Shown here piece by piece: positions 39,076 to 53,804 of a DNA stretch of 64,000 bases; position 1 is the first letter of the stretch, and every line of letters starts with the position of its first letter. Origin of the DNA: Flavobacteriales bacterium (lineage in GTDB: Bacteria > Bacteroidota > Bacteroidia > CAIKAF01); contig JANWKT010000017.1 in assembly GCA_025451235.1 (NCBI GenBank), forward strand, positions 186,001 to 250,000, read 5' to 3'. Below the pieces are notes generated by a model. That model was not told the origin of the DNA and ran no database searches. It saw nothing but the letters and a program-made list of their open reading frames with translations. The position numbers were made by a program, and so were the translations under genes.

Positions 39076-39681
39076 ATGATTGAGTTAACGGCCGATCAAA
39101 ATAAGATCATTGACGCTGCTTTTAAGCGGTTCGCCAAGTATGGCCAGGAAAATACAACGATGGCTCAGATTGCAAAAGATCTGGGATATTCACGTACATT
39201 TTTATACTATTATTTCCCCGATAAGGAAAGCATTTATAAAGTTGCACTTATCCGAAGAGCAAATAACTACTTCAATTCCATCAATAAGGAAATGAAAAAA
39301 AAGCATACCGGAGTAAAGATGCTAGAAAGTTTGATCCGGATCAAAATATCCTGTGCAAAAGATTATTATAGTCTGGGTGTATACACCAACGCTACTTTTT
39401 TCAGGATGTTACTCGAAGATCCTGACCTGCGCTTTATTTTTGCGGACGAGCAAAAGATCGTCACCAAAATTATTCAAGCAGGAATAAAAGATGGAACCTT
39501 AGAAAAATGTAATGCTACCAAAGCTGCACAAGCAGTGGTGGATGGATTGCATGGATATATGTCAATAGGATTAAGAAAACTAGGTTTCGAGCATAAGCTT
39601 ACACAAAAGGAGCTGGAAGGATTGTATAAGCGCCAGTTGGAATATGGTTTATTCCTGCTCAACTCGATCAAAAGAAGATAA
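39076..39681 (+). CDS. TetR family transcriptional regulator
   Basis: A 201-residue DNA-binding protein. The N-terminal helix-turn-helix runs from about residue 8 to 55 (DQNKIIDAAFKRFAKYGQENTTMAQIAKDLGYSRTFLYYYFPDKESIYKVAL), the classic TetR pattern. The ligand domain is all-helical. It ends 4 bp from the converging DAHP synthase gene. Target genes cannot be inferred. Confidence 0.85.
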   Translation: MIELTADQNKIIDAAFKRFAKYGQENTTMAQIAKDLGYSRTFLYYYFPDKESIYKVALIRRANNYFNSINKEMKKKHTGVKMLESLIRIKISCAKDYYSLGVYTNATFFRMLLEDPDLRFIFADEQKIVTKIIQAGIKDGTLEKCNATKAAQAVVDGLHGYMSIGLRKLGFEHKLTQKELEGLYKRQLEYGLFLLNSIKRR

Positions 39682-40854: not shown

Positions 40855-40863
40855 ATCATCCAG

Positions 40864-41229
40864 TGGAGCTGGTGGGAATTGAACCCACGTCCAAACACGG
40901 AATGGATAAGCTTTCTACACGTTTAGTATTACTTGTGTTTTCGTGAAGAGATAAGGCATAATACTACCAATCTATTCCTTAGTCTTTTATCTTAAGTTGC
41001 AATCAAGACACTTGCAACAGCAACCCGATGATCTGATGCCTCAGAGGACCCTATCAGGCAGAGGATCCAAGAAGCAGCACACTACGTAATCAAATTAGAT
41101 TAGGCAGCAAGTGCATAGTTAGAAGTGTTGCCACTTACAAGTTTGATGTCCGTTTTTAAAGAGGCAGATCCATCATCCCTCTACGTGCTTACCTATTCAA
41201 TACTCATGCTGTCAAAACCGGTCAGCCCC
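40864..41229 (-). ncRNA. ssrA: Transfer-messenger RNA (tmRNA)
   Basis: One-piece tmRNA of about 366 nt that rescues stalled ribosomes and tags the products for proteolysis. The acceptor stem pairs GGGGCUG at the 5' end with CAGCUCC at the 3' end, including the G-U third pair that alanyl-tRNA synthetase recognises. The tag reading frame is at 41132-41100 and encodes GNTSNYALAA before TAA. The 3' CCA is not encoded: the sequence after the discriminator A is CTG. The T-arm reads GGGUUCAAUUCCC. Confidence 0.95.
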
Positions 41230-41359: not shown

Positions 41360-42484
41360 TTAAGCATGGGCCAAAGATTTTCCAGCGCTCAAATGGGCTG
41401 GGTAATAGTGAAGCTTTCTTGCTCTACCTACTGCTTTAAAATGTCTAACATGCGATTGAAAAGCTTCCAGCAGGCTCGGATACTCATGGTATTGCACGTT
41501 ATACTCTTTGCTCAACCCCTTTACAATTTTGTGGATCTCTACATAGTGAATATGTGATACATTCGGAAATAAATGGTGCTCAATATGAAAATTTAGTCCA
41601 CCAATGAACCAATATAATAGCTTGCTTTGGGTGCCGAAATTTGCAGTCGTTGACAAATGATGATATAGACCGGATGTGTCTTCTTTCTTTTCATCATTAT
41701 AAGAGGTATAGAAACTGGTCTCTTCCACAATATGGGCCAAATGCAACACCACCGCCAAAAGCATTCCCTGAAGGCCAAAAACGATCAGGTATCCGATGAT
41801 GGTTGGAAGAACTCCGGCAAAAAACATGGGGATTACCAGGAAAATAACAACATGGATCATTTTACCTCCCCAAAAAACAATATGGTCGATCGCTTTCATC
41901 TTTTTTATTTGGTGATTGGCGATCTTCCCGGTAAAATATTTTACAAAATCCAATACATAATTACTCCAAAGCGCTGCGATACCATATAAAAATATAAAAT
42001 AGATATGTTGGTACTGGTGCATCCAGTTTCTAGGCTGATTTTCATTCGTACGAATAAAAGGTTTGATATCGATATCCTCATCATGCTCCTCAATATTATT
42101 ATTGTTATGATGAATAATATTGTGTTTTTGGTTCCACATATAAGAGCTACCACCCATGATGTTCATGGTAAATGCCATGGATTTATTCAACCATTTTTTG
42201 TTTGAATAGGTACCATGCGATCCGTCGTGCATTACATTACAACCAATGGCAGTGAGGTTAAAGCCCAGCACAACGGACAATAATAGGTTGATGGACCAAT
42301 GAAGGTTGGCAAAAACCAATAGCCCATAACATACGGCAAATATGGCAAACAGCACAATGGTTTTCCGGTATAGCTTCCAGTTTCCGGTTTTGCGCAGGTT
42401 ATTTGTTATGAAATACTTATTTACTTCGGTCCTGATCGCCTGTCCAAATTCAAGATAGTTCGATGGTTTGTTAACTGTGTTCAT
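41360..42484 (-). CDS. Membrane fatty acid desaturase (acyl-CoA/acyl-lipid type)
   Basis: A 374-residue integral membrane di-iron desaturase. Three His boxes are present: HDGSH at 86-90, HNIIHH at 121-126 and HIEHH near the C-terminus, before LFPNVSHIHY. At least four membrane helices separate them; no cytochrome b5 domain. The ATG at 42484 is used, because the longer frame to 42535 would run through the predicted -33 and -7 elements of its own promoter. It is divergent from the FAD oxidase and shares the dyad-bearing promoter region at 42500-42660. Likely introduces double bonds in membrane acyl chains. Confidence 0.86.
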   Translation of the reverse strand: MNTVNKPSNYLEFGQAIRTEVNKYFITNNLRKTGNWKLYRKTIVLFAIFAVCYGLLVFANLHWSINLLLSVVLGFNLTAIGCNVMHDGSHGTYSNKKWLNKSMAFTMNIMGGSSYMWNQKHNIIHHNNNNIEEHDEDIDIKPFIRTNENQPRNWMHQYQHIYFIFLYGIAALWSNYVLDFVKYFTGKIANHQIKKMKAIDHIVFWGGKMIHVVIFLVIPMFFAGVLPTIIGYLIVFGLQGMLLAVVLHLAHIVEETSFYTSYNDEKKEDTSGLYHHLSTTANFGTQSKLLYWFIGGLNFHIEHHLFPNVSHIHYVEIHKIVKGLSKEYNVQYHEYPSLLEAFQSHVRHFKAVGRARKLHYYPAHLSAGKSLAHA

Positions 42485-42504: not shown

Positions 42505-42549
42505 CAAAGCTCCGGAGAATGAAAGCTCCAAACAATGAACTTGAGTTAA
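42505..42549 (-). promoter_or_regulatory. Dyad-controlled promoter of the desaturase gene
   Basis: Dyad TTAACTCAAGTTCA (42549-42536), TTG -33 element (42535-42533), 24-bp spacer, then TTTG of the -7 element (42508-42505). A second dyad lies at 42580-42567, 31 bp further upstream. The 5' leader is short, about 20 nt. Confidence 0.7.
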
Positions 42550-42566
42550 CTAAGGGAAAATGGACA

Positions 42567-42580
42567 TGAACCTGGGTTAA
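42567..42580 (-). promoter_or_regulatory. Second dyad between the divergent promoters
   Basis: TGAACCTGGGTTAA on the plus strand, an exact copy of the consensus dyad in the minus orientation. It is 31 bp from the desaturase dyad and 49 bp from the oxidase dyad. Confidence 0.7.
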
Positions 42581-42615
42581 GAAATTTTTTTTACAGAATA
42601 TCTTTTCTTAAAATC

Positions 42616-42660
42616 TTAACCCAGGTTCATTGTTTCAGGAATGAGATATGCCTTGCTTTG
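42616..42660 (+). promoter_or_regulatory. Dyad-controlled promoter of the FAD oxidase gene
   Basis: Dyad TTAACCCAGGTTCA (42616-42629), TTG (42630-42632), 24 bp, TTTG (42657-42660). The start codon follows at 42684. Confidence 0.72.
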
Positions 42661-42683
42661 TGATGAATTAAATACGCATCACC

Positions 42684-44096
42684 ATGAAAGGAACTAAAAA
42701 GAAATACTGGAGTTATGGTAACACACACCATTCAACCGCAGAAATTTTCTATCCAAACAACGTGGAGGAATTACAAGAAACAGTTCAATATGCAAAAGAT
42801 CATAACCGGAAAATAACGGTTGCCGGAAGTTTTCACTCCGTTGATAACCAAAATTCAGGATCTGATATCGTTATATCCTTAAAAGAGATCAATTTTATTC
42901 AATTTAATGAAACGGATCATACCATAGAAGTAGGACCTGGAGCCAATTGGGGTAATATATTAAAAGTGGCTTATGCAAATGATTGTGTTCCTTATATTGT
43001 TATTACAGGTACGAAACCAACTGCTGCAGGGACCTTATCAGCCAATACCAATTCTCAATTCAGTCCAAGTTGTGGGAAGGAAGGTAAGTATTGTATTGAA
43101 TTTGATCTATTAACTCCGAAAGGGGAGTTGTTGAATTGCTCAAGAACACAAAATTCAGATATATTTTACGGAGTCATAGGTGGAATGGGGATACTTGGAT
43201 TTATTACCCGAATTAAGTATCAATTATTCCATGTGGGTTCGCCCTATAAAATTGAATATAACATCAAGCTATACGATGGGGTGGAAGACATTGAATCACG
43301 TTTTGATGTAAGGGAATCAAAAGAATATAAAACGGTGGAGGATCTAAAATCTCAGGGATCTCTTTTTTATTTTGATGGGGACCAACCCAAGATATGTATT
43401 TTGAACAGGCAATATGAACCTATCAAGAAAAGACAGAAACACAATACCTGGTATGCCTATTATTCATCCTTATCCTTTTTCCTGGTTCGTTTCTTCCCAA
43501 AGATCATCCTCAAACATATGGTGAAGGATGAAAAAACCCCTGTAAAAAAGAAGCCCATGCTAAAAAGGATGGACAACGTTTACTATGGGACCTTTTATGC
43601 CGACTCTGATTATTTATGGCAAAAATATTTTGGAAAAATATTTTCATTTTTTGGATATAAACCCAAAATATATGAGAATGCTTATTTTATTCCATTGGAG
43701 GGAGACAATGTAACCACCTTTAATAAAAGGGCATGTGAACTCCTCCTCAAATATAAATTGCAATTTGGCATGTACGATATTATGTACGTTCCCAAAGACG
43801 AACCATTTACCTTATCTGCATCCAGAAACACCGACGGGTTTTATGTTGATATCGCTTTTTTTGACAGGGCCCCTAAAGAATCATTAATGGCATTTTATCA
43901 AGAACTGAATGAACTTTGTTTTGAAATGAAGGGGAGGTTAACCCTGGTAAAGCATCTATACATTGAAACTGACATGCTTGAAAAAATGTATAAAGCTGAG
44001 ATAGAAGAAATGGTTGCCTTGAAAAGAAAAACCGATCCTGAGAATTTAATTGTTTCCAATTTTTTTAAAGAAAAATTTCCAACCTATTTTAGTTAG
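42684..44096 (+). CDS. FAD-linked oxidase (VAO/PCMH family)
   Basis: A 470-residue flavoenzyme with the p-cresol methylhydroxylase/VAO FAD-binding domain. AGSFHSVDNQ places a candidate covalent flavin-linking His at residue 51; GPGANWGNILKVAYANDC and GTLSANTNSQFSPSCGKEGKY follow, then GVIGGMGILGFITRIKYQL. The C-terminal substrate domain resembles alditol/aldonolactone oxidases or the bacterial relatives of sterol reductase DIMINUTO. A mid-protein basic and hydrophobic region (SSLSFFLVRFFPKIILKHMVK) suggests membrane association. It is divergently transcribed from the desaturase and shares its dyad regulation, so it may act on lipids. Confidence 0.75.
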   Translation: MKGTKKKYWSYGNTHHSTAEIFYPNNVEELQETVQYAKDHNRKITVAGSFHSVDNQNSGSDIVISLKEINFIQFNETDHTIEVGPGANWGNILKVAYANDCVPYIVITGTKPTAAGTLSANTNSQFSPSCGKEGKYCIEFDLLTPKGELLNCSRTQNSDIFYGVIGGMGILGFITRIKYQLFHVGSPYKIEYNIKLYDGVEDIESRFDVRESKEYKTVEDLKSQGSLFYFDGDQPKICILNRQYEPIKKRQKHNTWYAYYSSLSFFLVRFFPKIILKHMVKDEKTPVKKKPMLKRMDNVYYGTFYADSDYLWQKYFGKIFSFFGYKPKIYENAYFIPLEGDNVTTFNKRACELLLKYKLQFGMYDIMYVPKDEPFTLSASRNTDGFYVDIAFFDRAPKESLMAFYQELNELCFEMKGRLTLVKHLYIETDMLEKMYKAEIEEMVALKRKTDPENLIVSNFFKEKFPTYFS

Positions 44097-44243
44097 ATGA
44101 CTTCGTACGGTGATCATCCTGCAATACCAAAGATAATGTTCGGAAAATCAATAACTTGTGTTTTTGTTTGTTCTTTATTTTAAATTCTGTTCTAAAAAAA
44201 TGTATTTTCATCAGCACTAAACAAAACCTATTAGTTTGGTGCA

Positions 44244-44825
44244 ATGATACAAGAAGCCCTTCAACCGATCAGAGAATATTTTGAAAGAATTGTTGAGTTG
44301 AGCGACAAAGATTGGGGAGTATTCTCCTCCAAGCTGGTAAGAAGAGAATTTCCGAAGAAAACCACCTTGCTAAAAACCGGGCAGGTAGAAAATTATCTTT
44401 CCTATATTGAAAAAGGGATCACCCGTTTTTATATTCCTAAACTGGATAATGACCTCACCTTTGAATTCGAATTCGAAACCAGTTGGGTAAGTGCTTATGA
44501 TTCGTTCTTAATGCAAAGCCCTTCGGTATATGATATAGAAACGCTTACGGATACCGTATTGTGGAGCATTAGCTATGATGATTTCCAAATAGCTTATATG
44601 GAAACTGATATTGGAAATAAGATTGGGCGCCTTGCCAGCGAACAACTTTTTTTGAGAAAATCAAGGCGAGAATTATCCTTGCTGAATGATACCGCTGAGG
44701 AACGTTATCTAAAGCTGATCACTGAGGAGCGTCATTTGATCAAAGAAATTCCCTTAAAATACCTGGCCTCCTATATTGGGGTCACCCCTCAAGCTCTCAG
44801 CAGGATCCGGAAAAGAATTACTTAA
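44244..44825 (+). CDS. Crp/Fnr family transcriptional regulator
   Basis: A 193-residue regulator. The N-terminal cNMP-binding-like beta barrel is visible as VRREFPKKTTLLKTGQVENYLSYIEKGITRFYIPK...FEFEFETSWVSAYDSFLMQSPSVYDIETL, without the canonical cAMP-contact RxA signature. The C-terminal HTH is in EIPLKYLASYIGVTPQALSRIRKRIT. No Cys cluster for an iron-sulfur sensor. Its own promoter region (44097-44243) lacks the dyad, while the five promoters around it carry it, so it is the best candidate to bind that motif. Confidence 0.82.
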   Translation: MIQEALQPIREYFERIVELSDKDWGVFSSKLVRREFPKKTTLLKTGQVENYLSYIEKGITRFYIPKLDNDLTFEFEFETSWVSAYDSFLMQSPSVYDIETLTDTVLWSISYDDFQIAYMETDIGNKIGRLASEQLFLRKSRRELSLLNDTAEERYLKLITEERHLIKEIPLKYLASYIGVTPQALSRIRKRIT

Positions 44826-44947
44826 CTTCAGGATCATTCGGTTGTTCGTCTATCCCGAGTATTCTCTAAAATCCTTTTTAAGCATCTCGTTTTCTTGATG
44901 CTGATAGTTGAAGTAATTCAGGTTCCCCAAATAACGGATCGAATTTC

Positions 44948-44961
44948 TTAACCCAGGTTCA
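44948..44961 (+). promoter_or_regulatory. Upstream dyad of the lipoprotein promoter
   Basis: TTAACCCAGGTTCA, exact consensus, placed 31 bp upstream of the promoter-proximal dyad at 44979. A weaker third half-match (TAATTCAGGTTCC) lies near 44914. Confidence 0.7.
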
Positions 44962-44978
44962 TGCCATTCATTTCTTTC

Positions 44979-45023
44979 TTAATCTGGGTTCATTGTTTCC
45001 CATTTCGAATCTTTGGAGGTTTG
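44979..45023 (+). promoter_or_regulatory. Dyad-controlled promoter of the lipoprotein pair
   Basis: Dyad TTAATCTGGGTTCA (44979-44992), TTG (44993-44995), 24 bp, TTTG (45020-45023). The start codon follows at 45069. Confidence 0.72.
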
Positions 45024-45068
45024 TGTTATAATCATTCAAGATCTACTTAACACATAAAACTAACAGAA

Positions 45069-45959
45069 ATGAAAACAACAAAAGTAATTGTATGCATTGC
45101 CACTATGTTCGCTTTCATAGCTTCATTGTGCTCTTGTTCAATCAGCTTTGAGAAAAGAAGATATCGACCCGGTTACCATGTAGATGTTGTTCAGCGCCAA
45201 CATCGTTCAAAAACGAATAGAATAAATACTGAATCGGTTAAAATAAACGATATGGCACTGGAGAAGATCTCAACTCCATTTAACCTATCGACAGCTGAAT
45301 ATGAACAAGCCGAAGAAAATCCGGTTATCATAAAGAATAAAAAAATAGAACCCAACAGAACAGAACTTGTAAAAACCAAACCTATCCAGGAATATAAACC
45401 TACATTCATCCATGCCCATAAAACATCTAAAAAGATCAACAAGGCTTCAGAAACCAAAAAAAGTAAAAGTTTAAGAGATAGAAAAACTGCAGCATGGATA
45501 TTGGGAGGGATCTCCGTGTTGCTAGCCATCCTTGTTGCTATACTTTTTTCTGTGTACGGATTGGGGTTTTATGGTATCATGTTGATCGTCTATGGGGTGT
45601 TAGGGCTTGCTGCGATTCTCTTAGCCATCATCGCTTTAATAGTAAGGTTCGCCGGGATCCGAAAAGAGGAGGGATATGTTCACAAGCCCGTAGGCCGTGG
45701 CTTTACTAATGCAGGTTTTTATATTTCTATTATTACCGTATGCCTTGCCGTGTTTGCGTTTATTTTCAGTTTGCTTTTTCCAGGCGGATTCTTTAGCGTC
45801 ATCCTATGTCTGATAAGTGCTATTATGGCCTGTCTTTCATTTGGGATGGGATTCAAGTCGCTTAAAGATGATAAAAGCATCAAGACTAAATTGACGATTA
45901 TTTTTGGCTTTATTGCTTTGTTACTGGCCATTATAAGTATTATACTAATTATAGTCTGA
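45069..45959 (+). CDS. Polytopic lipoprotein with RRYRPGYHVDV motif (paralog A)
   Basis: A 296-residue protein with a lipoprotein signal (lipobox LCSC or CSCS near residue 22) followed by SISFEKRRYRPGYHVDV, a motif shared with the next gene and known from other small Bacteroidota lipoproteins. After a Lys/Thr-rich linker come five to six transmembrane segments: DRKTAAWILGGISVLLAILVAILF, a Gly/Leu-rich pair, FYISIITVCLAVFAFIFSLLF, a cysteine-containing helix and a final IIFGFIALLLAIISIILIIV. The second half resembles DUF4190-like membrane domains. Transcribed from the dyad promoter. No enzymatic function is visible. Confidence 0.7.
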   Translation: MKTTKVIVCIATMFAFIASLCSCSISFEKRRYRPGYHVDVVQRQHRSKTNRINTESVKINDMALEKISTPFNLSTAEYEQAEENPVIIKNKKIEPNRTELVKTKPIQEYKPTFIHAHKTSKKINKASETKKSKSLRDRKTAAWILGGISVLLAILVAILFSVYGLGFYGIMLIVYGVLGLAAILLAIIALIVRFAGIRKEEGYVHKPVGRGFTNAGFYISIITVCLAVFAFIFSLLFPGGFFSVILCLISAIMACLSFGMGFKSLKDDKSIKTKLTIIFGFIALLLAIISIILIIV

Positions 45960-46008
45960 TAAGTTTTACAACAACCGATCATAACATGTAACCTTAAAAA
46001 CAAATCAA

Positions 46009-46617
46009 ATGAAAACAACACTTTACATTCTTATCTGCATTTTTATTACTTCTTTGTTTTCGTGCTCCATTAGTTTCGAAAAAAGAAGATATAGGCCCGG
46101 CTATCATATTGATGTGACCCAGCATCCTCAGCGTCTAAGAACGCATAAACGAAACAGTGAAACGGTTAAAATTGATCCTTTTGATCAGAGACCTGTACTC
46201 ATTTCCTCAAAGTCTGGAAGTATAGAATTAGGGACCATTAAAAAAGTGCCTTCTATAACAGAAGGCAACAAATTGATAAATGATCATAGCTCATTGGTTA
46301 AAACAGAAAATATCAATATTAAAAAAACGACATTGATATTTAAGGACCTGACCTCAAAAAAAATGAGCAGGGCATCCGAAACCAAACAATCCAATAGCCT
46401 AAAAGGAAGAAAAATTGCCGCATGGATACTGGGGGGACTTGCTATTGCTCTTTTCCTTCTTTTTATCATATTTGCCATTGTCTGGACAAACGCTGGCGGA
46501 TTTTTAGTCGGCTTAGCATTGCCTTCGGCTTTTTTATTTTTTGCTGTTCCCGCAATTATTCTGGCTATTATAGCTTTATGTGTAAGATTTATAGGGGTGT
46601 ATAAGGAGAAGGATTAA
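46009..46617 (+). CDS. Polytopic lipoprotein with RRYRPGYHIDV motif (paralog B)
   Basis: A 202-residue shorter paralog of the preceding gene: lipobox LFSC, SISFEKRRYRPGYHIDV, a similar charged linker (SETKQSNSLKGRKIAAWILGG is shared almost exactly) and two to three helices (WILGGLAIALFLLFIIFAIV; AVPAIILAIIALCVRFIGV). It lacks the last helical block of paralog A. It has no dyad of its own and lies 49 bp downstream of it, so both probably form an operon. Confidence 0.7.
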   Translation: MKTTLYILICIFITSLFSCSISFEKRRYRPGYHIDVTQHPQRLRTHKRNSETVKIDPFDQRPVLISSKSGSIELGTIKKVPSITEGNKLINDHSSLVKTENINIKKTTLIFKDLTSKKMSRASETKQSNSLKGRKIAAWILGGLAIALFLLFIIFAIVWTNAGGFLVGLALPSAFLFFAVPAIILAIIALCVRFIGVYKEKD

Positions 46618-46726
46618 AAGTCGGGTAGGGGCGGCCATTCCATATTCAGGAAGGAAGGATAAGAGAGCTTCAATAACAATGGCCCACCGGCCCTTCCTCA
46701 TGGTTAATACTGATATTTCTGCGTTC

Positions 46727-46771
46727 TTAACCCAGGTTCATTGATTTCTGCAGATTATTTATAAAACTTTG
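46727..46771 (+). promoter_or_regulatory. Dyad-controlled promoter of the TonB receptor operon
   Basis: Dyad TTAACCCAGGTTCA (46727-46740, exact consensus), TTG (46741-46743), 24 bp, TTTG (46768-46771). A leader of about 115 nt precedes the ATG at 46893. Only one dyad is clear here. Confidence 0.72.
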
Positions 46772-46892
46772 CTCAAAATTAATGCGAAGAGTAAAAAATC
46801 ATTGATAGGGTACAAGTGATGATATATAACAATCTCGAAATAGTAAAGGATATCATTATAAAATTTTACTAACTTCGTTACTGAATTTAACA

Positions 46893-49781
46893 ATGAAAAA
46901 ACCACTACTCTCTTTATTTTTTATTGCCTTTTGTTTTTCGGCATATACCCAGATCATCCGGGGTAAGGTGACCGATGCATCTAACAATGAGGGAGCTTAT
47001 TCCATCGCCATTATGGAAAAAGGTACTACCAATGGAGTGCTTTCTGACTTTGACGGAAAATTTCAGATCAAACTTACCAAAGGATTTCCGGATACATTGG
47101 TTGTTTCGGGTTTAGGATTTATCCCGCAAGAAGTGGTTGTGCAAAATCAACAGGAAGATGTAGCCATAAAAATGGAAGTGAATCAGGTTACCTTAAAGGA
47201 AAAGACGATCACCGACACCCGACTCACTGACAAGCAAAAGGAATCTCCTCTTACGGTTGAATCAATGGATGCGATTGCCATTAAACAAACGGCTTCGGTT
47301 ACCTTTTATGAAGGATTGGGAAACCTGAAAGGAGTGGATCTTACTTCTGCATCCATTGGATTCAAAGTAATCAATACTCGAGGATTTAATAGTACTTCAC
47401 CTGTAAGATCCTTACAGATTATCGATGGAGTTGACAACGCTTCACCAGGATTAAATTTTTCACTTGGGAATTTCTTAGGTGCCTCTGAATTGGATATCCA
47501 AAAGGTGGAGTTGGTTCAAGGTGCCAGCGGTGCCTATTTTGGTCCCAGTGCATTTAACGGGGTTATTTCCATGACCACCAAAAGCCCGTTTGATTATCAA
47601 GGGATCACAGCATCCGTAAAATATGGAGAGCGGAATTTATTTGAAGGAGCTCTGCGGTATGCCCAAAAATTTAAGGATAAAAAAGGCTTCGATAGGTTTG
47701 CCTACAAGGTGAATTTATATTATCTCAGGGCCGATGATTGGCGTGCTACCAATTATGCGCCTTCCACCGATTCTGAAGTAGATGAATCGAATCCGGGAGG
47801 TTATGATGCTGTGAATCGTTATGGTGATGAAGCTTTGGCGGGAGGAGCTGACTTTTATTCAGACTCATCACAAAGAAAATTTTATCCAGGGCTGGGTTAT
47901 TTTTATAGAGATGGATATAAAGAAGAAGACCTGGTGGATTACAATACTCAAAATGTAAAGGCAAATATTGCTTTACATTATAAAACCAGGAAAGGAGTAG
48001 AAATGCTGGCTACTTCTAATTTTGGATACGGAACCACAGTTTATCAGGGTGACAACAGGTATAGTTTAAAGGATATTTTATTTTTTCAGAACAAATTTGA
48101 GATCCGGCAAAAAGATAAATTCTTTGTAAGGTTTTATGCTACGAATGAAGATGCAGGAAATTCTTATGATGCCGTGGTAACTGCTTTCTTATTGCAGAAC
48201 AATAACAAACCGTCGGGACCACCTTTTTCAGGAATAGGACCTTCCTGGAACAATGATTATTCTACCTGGTTCCAGAATAATATTGCCAACGTAAACAATG
48301 GTCAGCTATTCGATGTTTGTTATCCTTTATATGGAGATAGCTTTCCTGTAAATGGACCTAATTATAATTGGGGTTTAGCAGATTCCTTGCTCAACCTATT
48401 ATATGATTCATTAGTAGTATGGCATCAGCAAGCCCGGGACTATGCCAATTACCAGCAATTGTTGGGGGGGCAATTTCCTTATTTTCAACCAGGAACGTAT
48501 CAATTTGATACAGCGTTTGCCGGAATCACCAGCCGACCTTTAGGTCAGGGGGGTAGCAAAATATTCGATCGTTCGGCGTTATACCACCTGCACGGAGAAT
48601 ATAAATGGAGATTTAAAGCAGCCGACGAGAAAAAATCGGGCAAGGATTGGTATAAGTTTACCCAGGGATTGTCGACCATTGATTGGACAGTTGGAGCAAA
48701 CGTGAGGATCTATGCACCCGATACAAAAGGCACCATTTTTATTGATACCGGAGATGTACGAATTACCAATTGGGAGTTTGGCGTTTATTTCGGATTGGAA
48801 AAGCGATGGGAGAAAATTAAACTCAATGCTACCCTTCGAATGGATAAGAACCAGAATTTTCCTTTCTTATTTTCTCCGGCGGTTTCGATAGTATATCTTC
48901 CACATAAAAATCATATACTTCGCTTTTCTCTTGCTTCGGCCATCAGAAATCCAACTTTAGCCGATCAATATTTAAATTATAATGTAGGCCGGGCTATCCT
49001 GTTAGGAAATATCAATGGATATGACTCATTGATAACGGTTGAATCATTTTACAATTATTTAGACAGCGTTGGAATTTTTTCGGCACTTAGGTATTTTAAT
49101 GTGGATCCGGTAAAACCTGAACAAGTAAAAACATTTGAGATAGGATACAGAGGAACCTTTTGGAAGAGATGGTATATAGATGCCTCTTATTACGTGAGTT
49201 TATACCAGGATTTTATAGGCTATAAAGTGGGGATATCCGCTACCTTCGATCAGACCTTTGGTTTTCCTTCACCCGATACAAAAGCCTATAGGGTAGCTAC
49301 TAATTCACCCGATTTAATTCTCACCCAAGGGTTCTCGATACAATCCTCCGTTTATTTTGGGAAGTATTTTTCTTTTAATGGAAATTATACCTGGAATGAA
49401 TTGAATAGTTTAGGATCGACCGACCCCATTATTCCTGCATTTAATACCCCAGAGCATAAATTCAATGTTGGAATTGATGGCCGGGATATTCAAATGAAGT
49501 TGGGGAAATTAAAGATCAACAACTGGGGATTCAACATTAATTTTAAATGGATCGATGGATTCCAGTATACCGGCTCTCCTCAGTTTACGGGTATGGTTCC
49601 TTCTTATTATATGTTAGATGCTCAATTGAATTATACTTTAAAAAAGGCACATCTTACTTTCAAGGTGGGAGCACAGAATATTACAAATAATATGACTTTC
49701 CAGGTATACGGTGGGCCAAGAATAGGACGACTTGTTTATTTTAGTTTATTATTCGATTGGAACTTTTTCAAGAAAAAATAA
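46893..49781 (+). CDS. TonB-dependent outer membrane receptor with carboxypeptidase-like domain
   Basis: A 962-residue outer-membrane beta-barrel importer. Signal peptide (to residue 20), CarboxypepD_reg-like domain (about 21-95: IRGKVTDASNNEGAYSIAIMEKGTTNGVLSDFDGKF), a plug (about 115-235) with FKVINTRGFNSTSPVRSLQIIDGVDN and VELVQGASGAYFGPSAFNGVISMTTK, then a long barrel ending in the aromatic YFSLLFDWNFFKKK. No SusD-like partner follows; the next gene is a T9SS-exported esterase 42 bp downstream. It is part of the dyad regulon. Confidence 0.88.
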   Translation: MKKPLLSLFFIAFCFSAYTQIIRGKVTDASNNEGAYSIAIMEKGTTNGVLSDFDGKFQIKLTKGFPDTLVVSGLGFIPQEVVVQNQQEDVAIKMEVNQVTLKEKTITDTRLTDKQKESPLTVESMDAIAIKQTASVTFYEGLGNLKGVDLTSASIGFKVINTRGFNSTSPVRSLQIIDGVDNASPGLNFSLGNFLGASELDIQKVELVQGASGAYFGPSAFNGVISMTTKSPFDYQGITASVKYGERNLFEGALRYAQKFKDKKGFDRFAYKVNLYYLRADDWRATNYAPSTDSEVDESNPGGYDAVNRYGDEALAGGADFYSDSSQRKFYPGLGYFYRDGYKEEDLVDYNTQNVKANIALHYKTRKGVEMLATSNFGYGTTVYQGDNRYSLKDILFFQNKFEIRQKDKFFVRFYATNEDAGNSYDAVVTAFLLQNNNKPSGPPFSGIGPSWNNDYSTWFQNNIANVNNGQLFDVCYPLYGDSFPVNGPNYNWGLADSLLNLLYDSLVVWHQQARDYANYQQLLGGQFPYFQPGTYQFDTAFAGITSRPLGQGGSKIFDRSALYHLHGEYKWRFKAADEKKSGKDWYKFTQGLSTIDWTVGANVRIYAPDTKGTIFIDTGDVRITNWEFGVYFGLEKRWEKIKLNATLRMDKNQNFPFLFSPAVSIVYLPHKNHILRFSLASAIRNPTLADQYLNYNVGRAILLGNINGYDSLITVESFYNYLDSVGIFSALRYFNVDPVKPEQVKTFEIGYRGTFWKRWYIDASYYVSLYQDFIGYKVGISATFDQTFGFPSPDTKAYRVATNSPDLILTQGFSIQSSVYFGKYFSFNGNYTWNELNSLGSTDPIIPAFNTPEHKFNVGIDGRDIQMKLGKLKINNWGFNINFKWIDGFQYTGSPQFTGMVPSYYMLDAQLNYTLKKAHLTFKVGAQNITNNMTFQVYGGPRIGRLVYFSLLFDWNFFKKK

Positions 49782-49823
49782 TCATTCAAATTTTAATCAA
49801 CAACACAATCAAATTCACTTTTT

Positions 49824-51374
49824 ATGAAAAAACAATTATTCATCTTTATTGTAAGCTTAACTGCCATGGTTTCCATCCATGCACAAGTAAGGTATCTCGA
49901 TGATATTTTTACTGTTGGGCAGATCCAGAAAACAACGGATGTGGTTTATGGACAAAATTTTTACTTCAATGCCTATCCACCTGCCCCCGCAGGTACCTCA
50001 CCAAGCAATCCACAAATGGCGGACCTGCAAATGGATGTATATACACCTCCGGGGTCAGATACCGCCCAAATGAGACCTTTGGTATTGATATTCCATACCG
50101 GTATCTTTCTTCCCAGGTACATTAATTTTGTTCCTACCGGAAGAAAAGATGATAGTACTGTGGTGGAATTGGCGAACAGGTTTACCCAAAAAGGGTATGT
50201 GGTGGCAGCTCCCAATTATCGATTAGGGTGGAATCCATTTGCCGGCACACAGGTGGAGAGAACCGCTGAGATTCTCAATGCCGTTTACCGGGCTATTCAT
50301 GATGCACAAACTGCAGTTCGTTTTTTCAAAAAAGATGCAGCTACCACCAATCTTTATAAGATTGACCCAAATAGGATCATTCTGATTGGCCAGGGCTCGG
50401 GAGGGTTTGTTACACTGGCCTATAATTTTTTAACCGATCAATCAGAACTTAATTTGCCCAAATTTTTGGATGGACTGGGAAATTCGGTCATTGATCCGAG
50501 TCTGGTAGGCTATGTGGATGGTATTGGTGGGACCTATAACAACTATAATCACGCTGGCTACTCTAATCAGGTGCATATGGTTTCCGGTTTAGGTGGGGCC
50601 ATTGGCGACATTAGCTGGATGAATAATTATTGGCCTGCAGTTCCGGTAGCTTGCATGCATTGTAGAAAAGATCTGTTTACATCCATTGATAGTGGAAATG
50701 TAACAGTGCCAGGGACAGGACAGGTGGTGGTTTTTGTTCATGGCTCCAGAACAGTGGTTAAAAAAGCCGTACAACAAGGTTTGAACGATGTATGGGTAAA
50801 CAATGTATTCACAGATCCATATTCCCTAAGGGCTTATGCCTTAAATCCTGCTGCTACCTCTGAAGGATTATTTCAATTTGAAATTCCTGATATCCCGAAT
50901 TCAAGCAACCAGGAAGCTGATCCATGGGAATGGTGGGATTCTACTTTAACTACCCAGCAAGCAATAGCCGAAGGCGCCACCTTTGCCTTGCAGGTTCACC
51001 AAAATGGAATATCCGGAAACCCGAATATGAGTGCTGCCAAAGGAAGGGCTTATTGTGATACCATCGTAGGATTTCTTACTCCCAGAATGTATTTGGTAGT
51101 GACCAATCCAACCATTTCTATTGAACAAAATGCGGATATTGATTATGAGGTTTATCCGAACCCATCCACCGAAAGTTTGATCATCAACGTTTCAGGCGGA
51201 TTGATCATTGAAAACATTTCGGTGGTTGATATGAATGGAAAAACATTGGCGGATTTTAGAAGCATCAATAGCAGTTCGTATGTACTTCACCGATATGGAA
51301 TGAGTGCAGGTGTTTATTTTCTGGATGTAAAAACCAGCAATGGAAATTTCACGCATAAGATCATTTTGGATTAA
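49824..51374 (+). CDS. T9SS-exported alpha/beta-hydrolase esterase
   Basis: A 516-residue secreted esterase. Signal peptide to about residue 20; alpha/beta-hydrolase domain with LVLIFHTGIF (oxyanion strand), VVAAPNYRLGWNPF, and GQGSGG with nucleophile Ser192; the catalytic Asp and His cannot be fixed with confidence. The C-terminal domain carries YEVYPNPSTESLIINV and AGVYFLDVKTSNGNFTHKIILD, a T9SS type-A sorting domain. It is likely co-transcribed with the TonB receptor, suggesting that the esterase releases a molecule that the receptor imports; this is inference. Confidence 0.8.
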   Translation: MKKQLFIFIVSLTAMVSIHAQVRYLDDIFTVGQIQKTTDVVYGQNFYFNAYPPAPAGTSPSNPQMADLQMDVYTPPGSDTAQMRPLVLIFHTGIFLPRYINFVPTGRKDDSTVVELANRFTQKGYVVAAPNYRLGWNPFAGTQVERTAEILNAVYRAIHDAQTAVRFFKKDAATTNLYKIDPNRIILIGQGSGGFVTLAYNFLTDQSELNLPKFLDGLGNSVIDPSLVGYVDGIGGTYNNYNHAGYSNQVHMVSGLGGAIGDISWMNNYWPAVPVACMHCRKDLFTSIDSGNVTVPGTGQVVVFVHGSRTVVKKAVQQGLNDVWVNNVFTDPYSLRAYALNPAATSEGLFQFEIPDIPNSSNQEADPWEWWDSTLTTQQAIAEGATFALQVHQNGISGNPNMSAAKGRAYCDTIVGFLTPRMYLVVTNPTISIEQNADIDYEVYPNPSTESLIINVSGGLIIENISVVDMNGKTLADFRSINSSSYVLHRYGMSAGVYFLDVKTSNGNFTHKIILD

Positions 51375-51410
51375 GATCTACAGGATTTTTATTACTTAAT
51401 AATAAATGGC

Positions 51411-51434
51411 AAAGCCCCGAAAGGGGCTTTTTTT
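51411..51434 (+). terminator. Intrinsic terminator after the esterase gene
   Basis: AAAGCCCCgaaaGGGGCTTT stem with a T-run, 36 bp after the esterase stop. Confidence 0.85.
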
Positions 51435-51470
51435 ATTGGGATACCTCCTTTATAACGGAACATAAACGCA

Positions 51471-51512
51471 TGAACCTGGGTTAAGAAAACATGCTTTCTT
51501 AACCCAAGTTCA
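51471..51512 (+). promoter_or_regulatory. Two upstream dyads of the small lipoprotein promoter
   Basis: TGAACCTGGGTTAA (51471-51484, reversed orientation) and TTAACCCAAGTTCA (51499-51512). The second is 31 bp upstream of the proximal dyad at 51530. Over about 75 bp this block matches the reversed desaturase upstream region. Confidence 0.7.
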
Positions 51513-51529
51513 TGTCCTTTTTCTCTTAG

Positions 51530-51574
51530 TTAACTCAGGTTCATTGTTTCAGCCTGCAAATGGGGCGAACATTG
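51530..51574 (+). promoter_or_regulatory. Dyad-controlled promoter of the 69-residue lipoprotein
   Basis: Dyad TTAACTCAGGTTCA (51530-51543), TTG (51544-51546), 24 bp, ATTG (51571-51574). The start codon follows at 51607. Confidence 0.7.
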
Positions 51575-51606: not shown

Positions 51607-51816
51607 ATGAAAACAATTATATTCTTACTGATATTGTCCATCATACTCACTGCATGCTCAAAAAAAGAGACCTATATCATCGTTGAATCCAATAAAGGCA
51701 CTTCTACCATGAGCAGGTTGGATAGCACGGAGGAATATGTACTGGGGAAAACTAGCAGCAACATGGCTCAAAAGACTGTTAGCCCAGCCGTTGGGCGTAC
51801 CTATGACTTTCCATAA
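51607..51816 (+). CDS. Small lipoprotein of the dyad regulon
   Basis: A 69-residue protein with a lipoprotein signal (lipobox LTAC, Cys17) and a short mature part, Ser/Thr-rich, ending in VGRTYDFP. No family recognised. It is supported as a real gene by its signal peptide, ATG with upstream A-rich leader, and the best conserved tandem-dyad promoter of the set. Confidence 0.62.
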   Translation: MKTIIFLLILSIILTACSKKETYIIVESNKGTSTMSRLDSTEEYVLGKTSSNMAQKTVSPAVGRTYDFP

Positions 51817-53481: not shown

Positions 53482-53559
53482 AGATCTGATCTATTTTATA
53501 AAGTGAACGATTGTATCCCACAAAGACCCTACAATCATGTAATAGACAAATAAAACATG

Positions 53560-53755
53560 GAATAGCTGCATAAGGCGCCTGGAAGACTGCCAGCTATGCT
53601 GCCAGGCCCGACTGTAAGTTCGAGTACACCGGCAAAAAGCCGGTGGTATCGAGAACAAGGAGGGCGGGACTATAGAAGGGGCCGGCGGCGGCTTAGTGCA
53701 GGCTGGCGAACACCAGAGAGCCTTGGCTGCACTTGGCCGGGGGGATTCCCAAGTC
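53560..53755. other. GC-rich structured intergenic island
   Basis: A second GC-rich, palindrome-dense stretch between divergent genes. It holds a perfect stem CACCGGC/GCCGGTG with AAAAA loop (53627-53645) inside a longer pairing (TCGA/TCGA flanks) and AGTGCAG/CTGCACT (53695-53701 with 53727-53733). No T-run, no recognised RNA family; an 88-codon frame across it on the minus strand looks non-coding. Confidence 0.45.
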
Positions 53756-53804
53756 ATAAGTCTGATGAATAATATCTATATTTAAAAAATATTTATCCTT
53801 GTGA

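Follow-up and report, generated by a model that had tools for sequence, protein, structure and literature searches.

Putative Crp/Fnr-type operators and lineage-specific 31-bp tandem dyads at promoters of a Flavobacteriales bacterium

Overview

The window analysed here is a stretch of 64,000 nucleotides from a Flavobacteriales bacterium (contig JANWKT010000017.1, positions 186,001 to 250,000). It contains a set of palindromic dyads, TTAAC-N4-GTTCA, that appear to be operators of a Crp/Fnr-superfamily protein encoded at 44244-44825. In each promoter, the proximal dyad has its centre at about -41.5 to -42.5 and runs into the -33 TTG, and a dimer bound to it would serve as a class II activator. 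The activated promoter would be of the sigma-A type and otherwise poor, the T of TAnnTTTG being mostly missing from its -7 box. The desaturase, lipoprotein A, and small-lipoprotein promoters also have a distal dyad, on which a second dimer may make a class I-like contact or help to hold the first one in place. The ancestral state across Bacteroidia would be one operator, whose TTAAC provides the stop codon of the regulator, driving the next gene. The operator appears to have been multiplied in the organism studied here, where the regulon comprises at least seven promoters and three of these have a tandem module. Taken as a whole, this explanation (Crp/Fnr operators, class II activation, a distal helper dimer, and regulon growth) is considered quite probable.

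Dyads and their pairing in the window

The dyads share the consensus TTAAC(C)-N2-(G)GTTCA and are 5-N4-5 palindromes. The 4.28-Mb genome has 12 sites that match the degenerate dyad exactly, and nine of these lie in a 9-kb part of the window (binomial P ~2e-22; Table 1). The original prediction had reported that the desaturase, lipoprotein A, and small-lipoprotein promoters each have two dyads, whose starts differ by exactly 31 bp. For the oxidase and TonB-receptor promoters it had reported a single clear dyad, and from this difference it had proposed that promoter strength may be graded. The three pairs are real, all of their coordinates are correct, and the single dyads are present as described. 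When searched for with a strict pattern that allowed any gap from 3 to 33, tandem dyads were found exactly three times in the window, all at 31 bp. This distance corresponds to 2.95 helical turns, on the same face of the helix. A chance origin can be ruled out, with tandem pairs in 0 of 100 shuffles and nine of the 12 genomic sites so close together.

Three corrections to the earlier description are needed, of which the third, that two of the modules are copies of each other, is taken up below. At the small lipoprotein there is a third dyad, in inverted orientation, 28 bp upstream of the distal one. In addition, the desaturase and oxidase dyads lie within one divergent region, where the distal desaturase dyad also stands behind that of the oxidase, at an out-of-phase distance of 49 bp (4.7 turns). 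All four of the extra dyads (42567, 44948, 51471, and 51499) run on into TTCATG and are without TTG; therefore, they are not core promoters themselves. As a separate observation, the third dyad and the distal small-lipoprotein dyad together form a 23-nt near-perfect inverted repeat (51471-51514), and no gene faces the third dyad.

Table 1. Coordinates of the dyads, core promoters, and genes in the window
Feature	Position	Strand	Remarks
Fatty-acid desaturase (target)	41360..42484	-	PF00487, E=3.6e-35
Desaturase core promoter	42505..42535	-	TTG 42535-42533, 24 nt, TTTG 42508-42505; 0 mismatches
Proximal dyad, desaturase promoter	42536..42549	-	TTAACTCAAGTTCA
Distal dyad, desaturase promoter	42567..42580	-	TTAACCCAGGTTCA; 31 bp upstream of proximal
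Single dyad, oxidase promoter	42616..42629	+	
Oxidase core promoter	42630..42660	+	TTG, 24 nt, TTTG
FAD-linked (D-arabinono-lactone oxidase-like) oxidase (target)	42684..44096	+	PF01565, E=3e-19; PF04030
Crp/Fnr-superfamily regulator	44244..44825	+	193 aa, no cysteine; recognition helix TPQALSRIRKRI
Distal dyad, lipoprotein A promoter	44948..44961	+	
Proximal dyad, lipoprotein A promoter	44979..44992	+	TTAATCTGGGTTCA
Lipoprotein A core promoter	44993..45023	+	TTG, 24 nt, TTTG
Exported membrane protein / lipoprotein A	45069..45959	+	Paralogue 46009-46617, 45% identity
Single dyad, TonB-receptor promoter	46727..46740	+	
TonB-receptor core promoter	46741..46771	+	TTG, 24 nt, TTTG
TonB-dependent receptor (target)	46893..49781	+	PF00593, PF07715
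T9SS-sorted esterase-like gene, after TonB receptor	49824-51374		PF20434, PF18962
Third, inverted dyad upstream of small lipoprotein	51471..51484	-	No adjoining TTG
Distal dyad, small lipoprotein promoter	51499..51512	+	
Proximal dyad, small lipoprotein promoter	51530..51543	+	
Small lipoprotein core promoter	51544..51574	+	TTG, 24 nt, ATTG
Small lipoprotein (target)	51607..51816	+	69 aa; from sequence reading

Core promoters and the position of the proximal dyad

Every proximal dyad directly abuts a TTG, which is followed by 24 nt and then by TTTG (ATTG at the small lipoprotein). As computed over the genome, the architecture dyad-TTG-N24-TTTG occurs at 0-1 mismatch exactly seven times, five times in the window and twice on contig C14 (123011 and 123952). 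The remaining genome matches have 2-3 mismatches, a level that is also reached by the reversed control. In Bacteroidota, TTG followed by TAnnTTTG (-33/-7) is the sigma-A promoter. In Flavobacterium psychrophilum the sigma-A box TAnnTTTG has been mapped at -12 to -5 (PMC9723704). The promoters found here resemble those of Flavobacterium and Bacteroides in having the -33 TTG and a -7 nAnnTTTG at fixed spacing. They differ in that the T of TA is mostly lost and that an activator dyad abuts the -33 box.

With the transcription start predicted from these elements, the centre of the proximal dyad is placed at -42.5, or at -41.5 if the box is centred at -7. The corresponding values for the distal dyad are -73.5 and -72.5. 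The original prediction had put the proximal dyad at about -41.5, a productive position for Crp-type activators, and relative to the conserved -33 TTG and -7 TTTG it does lie at a class II position. The spacing from dyad to core does not vary among the seven promoters of the genome or at the foreign loci described below, as fits class II promoters, in which the centre is near -41.5. In CRP and FNR, a centre at -41.5 together with fixed promoter spacing is the geometry of class II activators, and FNR boxes have the 5-N4-5 spacing of half-sites.

The closest known systems are the class II and the tandem class I plus class II promoters of Escherichia coli CRP/FNR. These share the regulator superfamily, the 5-N4-5 dyad (FNR), the proximal centre at -41.5/-42.5, and a distal site about three turns upstream. 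In contrast, the half-site here is TTAAC(C) and not TGTGA or TTGAT, the core is the Bacteroidota -33 TTG/-7 TTTG, and the regulator has neither Fe-S cysteines nor a recognisable cAMP-contact motif.

Computation shows the architecture, how it is linked to the regulator, and that it is unique; binding and activation, as well as what the distal dyad does and what the signal is, are inferred. Class II activation by a Crp/Fnr dimer at the proximal dyad is, on the sequence, highly probable. Since no promoter leaves a gap between the dyad and the -33 element, the protein could instead be a repressor, with the dimer at the TTG blocking RNA polymerase. However, the centre at -41.5/-42.5 and the fixed 24 nt between TTG and TTTG are those of a classical class II activator, in most of the -7 boxes the T of TAnnTTTG is missing, and distal dyads at -72.5 suit activation more than occlusion. 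Repression is thus considered unlikely.

The regulator protein

The putative regulator possesses an N-terminal beta-roll of the cNMP-binding type (PF00027, E=2.9e-7, above the curated cut-off). A C-terminal winged helix-turn-helix may be present; it gave no Pfam HTH match, but there is a full-length alignment with PDB 3dn7 (residues 12-191, E=1.8e-18) and an invariant helix, TPQALSRIR, at the expected C-terminal place. This recognition helix is 99-100% conserved. PDB 3dn7, a "cyclic nucleotide binding regulatory protein," is the sole solved sequence relative. It has a similar C-terminal helix, TPEYLSEIRKK, but it is a distant relative, with TPEYLSEIR in place of TPQALSRIR. To our knowledge, no DNA site is known for 3dn7.

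The cAMP-contact motif G-E-L ... R-S/T, which belongs to the binding pocket of cAMP-dependent CRP, is not recognisable by reading; the region in question is VSAYDSFLMQSPSVYDIETL, and the conserved residues there differ. An FNR-type 4Fe-4S cysteine cluster is also absent, as the protein has no cysteines, and 54 of 101 aligned proteins are likewise free of cysteine. CRP and FNR have Glu at the position that corresponds to Q183, and this Glu recognises a G:C pair in TGTGA/TTGAT. The Gln at Q183 would, by analogy, fit the A at that position of TTAAC.

Linkage of the operator to the regulator across Bacteroidia

A scan of 84,980 species was carried out on DNA only, with the pattern dyad-TTG-TTT-N21-TTTG and no use of protein information. 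It returned at least 116 loci, and all 80 of the titles listed were Bacteroidota. The linkage to the regulator was computed from these loci. An orthologue of the regulator (43-77% identical) is on the same strand at 79 of 80 loci checked and nearly always ends at the dyad. Regulator reading frames were identified 103 times over the at least 116 loci, and in 94 of them the stop codon is the TAA inside TTAAC. Conservation at the foreign loci reaches 93% for the A of TAnnTTTG, and most start codons are found 55-70 nt past the start of the dyad. The linkage was also examined in reverse. In six other sampled genomes with a strong orthologue, the dyad is at the 3' end of the regulator gene in five (G155, G114, G151, and G025 with 0-1 mismatch, G176 with two mismatches) and not in G089. 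No sampled genome from any other class of the phylum contains the motif. The promoter-adjoining site is conserved across a whole bacterial class, the Bacteroidia.

Because the same dyad and promoter are directly behind orthologues of its gene across the Bacteroidia, the local Crp/Fnr protein is the likely binder. The identification of the dyads as Crp/Fnr-type operators, as originally predicted, is strongly supported by promoter anatomy and by linkage to the regulator. A different regulator could own the dyads, for example the TetR-family protein encoded at 39076-39681, whose gene is 3 kb away; TetR proteins bind palindromes. However, 79 of 80 loci that were found by the motif carry a Crp/Fnr orthologue, and the 5-N4-5 spacing of half-sites is of the FNR type. 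The TetR protein was rejected as the binder since the dyad co-occurs with the Crp/Fnr gene, and ownership by any such other regulator is very improbable.

In this genome, the regulator gene has no dyad in its own upstream region. The region of its stop codon (44815-44845, TTAACTTCAGGATCATTCGG) has the look of an ancestral operator that decayed in place (edit distance 3, P ~0.02), which is suggestive only. Upstream of some dyads is AATTTC, in which a remnant of the last codons of the regulator is indistinguishable from a functional flank. In the one genus mate compared (G001, an incomplete genome), neither a close regulator orthologue nor any of the promoters was found. More distant regulators, about 43-45% identical where measured, are seen with the same operator at L101, L109, L164, L180, and L182, followed by YiaA/B membrane proteins and not by DoxX.

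Lineage specificity of the tandem pairs

The 31-bp spacing is lineage-specific. The tandem pattern was found in no other species of the 84,980-species collection, from which very close relatives may have been left out. In the 395 Bacteroidia genomes compared, two or more such promoters were seen in this genome only. Each of the at least 116 foreign loci has exactly one strict dyad, and weak secondary dyads within 150 bp of them number two, with 3.2 expected. Words cut off by the ends of contigs were not counted as sites. No good dyad or dyad pair was found near related desaturase, oxidase, and lipoprotein genes in relatives, near the oxidase copy on the organism's own contig C8, or near the copies in the genus mate. 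It had been held that absence of the spacing from orthologous regions would count against the tandem design. On this point the outcome is divided, as the single operator is conserved and the 31-bp spacing is not. The view of the tandem as a general conserved design is not supported; it is seen in this genome only, and copying explains part of the identity in spacing.

The desaturase and small-lipoprotein modules are identical at 15 of 17 spacer positions, and their flanks beyond are near chance. Since the surroundings match less than the spacer, one module was probably copied from the other. There are therefore at most two independent cases of 31 bp. With one copy discounted, two random spacings would agree by chance in about 1-2%. 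The lipoprotein A spacer has drifted (8 of 17 and 10 of 17 identical to the other two) with its length unchanged. The two promoters on contig C14 are related to each other, and in both a TTAAC half-site occupies the corresponding -31 register.

It is possible that the distal dyads are inert, that the proximal dyads do all of the work, and that the pairs are relics of copying a two-operator stretch between promoters. The common spacer with flanks near chance, the absence of tandem pairs from every other genome, and the lack of TTG at all four extra dyads agree with this. However, the distal dyads are nearly perfect (0-1 mismatch) even though the lipoprotein A spacer diverged without an indel, which suggests that the spacing was held, and 31 bp is close to three turns. 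This explanation is given somewhat less than an even chance. No conservation backs the distal dyads because the 31-bp pairs occur in no other genome. That the distal dyad adds to activation is judged, from the sequence features above, to be even or slightly better in likelihood.

Target genes

The putative targets in the window are the desaturase, the FAD-linked oxidase, lipoprotein A with its paralogue, the TonB receptor with the esterase-like protein, and the small lipoprotein (Table 1). On contig C14 the targets comprise exported membrane proteins together with a desaturase, whose sphingolipid delta-4 desaturase domain matches PF08557 at E=1.2e-15. This bacterial protein (L091:8015-8995, contig C14 ~124015-124995) combines Lipid_DES (PF08557) and FA_desaturase domains under the same operator. 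DoxX-like genes predominate behind the operator at the foreign loci, with 55 of 110 matching DoxX_2. Others are desaturases, DUF2141, YiaAB, epimerase-like, and acyl-ACP thioesterase genes. With two desaturases and envelope proteins here, and DoxX-like proteins, desaturases, and acyl-ACP thioesterase elsewhere, a membrane-lipid response is suggested. A membrane-lipid or envelope response would thus be the likeliest theme of the regulon.

The genome also possesses paralogues of the oxidase (C8:331788-333194, 66%) and of the desaturase (C8:282393-283442, 55%) that are without the promoter architecture. Counterparts in the genus mate (64% for the oxidase, 54% for the desaturase) are about as similar as these C8 paralogues. 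Therefore, the oxidase and desaturase of the window may be duplicates that were captured by the regulon.

Other features of the window

A tmRNA gene (tag GNTSNYALAA) is present at 40863-41229 on the minus strand. Between genes at 53550-53765 is a GC-rich, highly structured stretch (z-score -3.3, plus strand) that is possibly an unknown RNA. It matched no Rfam family, and a comparison with 30 related genomes revealed no relative.

Significance

A literature search found no paper on the motif, the regulator, or such a regulon, and among the matches listed, the papers that contained the letters of the motif were unrelated. A regulon of a known activator kind probably grew here from one target to at least seven promoters by copying of operators. 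A broader reading can be offered tentatively, at close to an even chance. According to it, a Crp/Fnr subfamily without cAMP or Fe-S features was hard-wired to its target through an operator that also provides the stop codon of the regulator gene, an arrangement retained across Bacteroidia. In one lineage it may then have grown into a membrane-lipid or envelope regulon, as modules, some of them 31-bp tandem cassettes, were copied to promoters that drive duplicated genes for desaturases, oxidases, and lipoproteins.

For a widespread Bacteroidota Crp/Fnr subfamily with no description found in the literature search, the analysis provides a concrete and testable operator, promoter architecture, and putative regulon. 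With seven promoters in this bacterium and one operator per genome elsewhere, its genome may offer a natural case of regulon growth.
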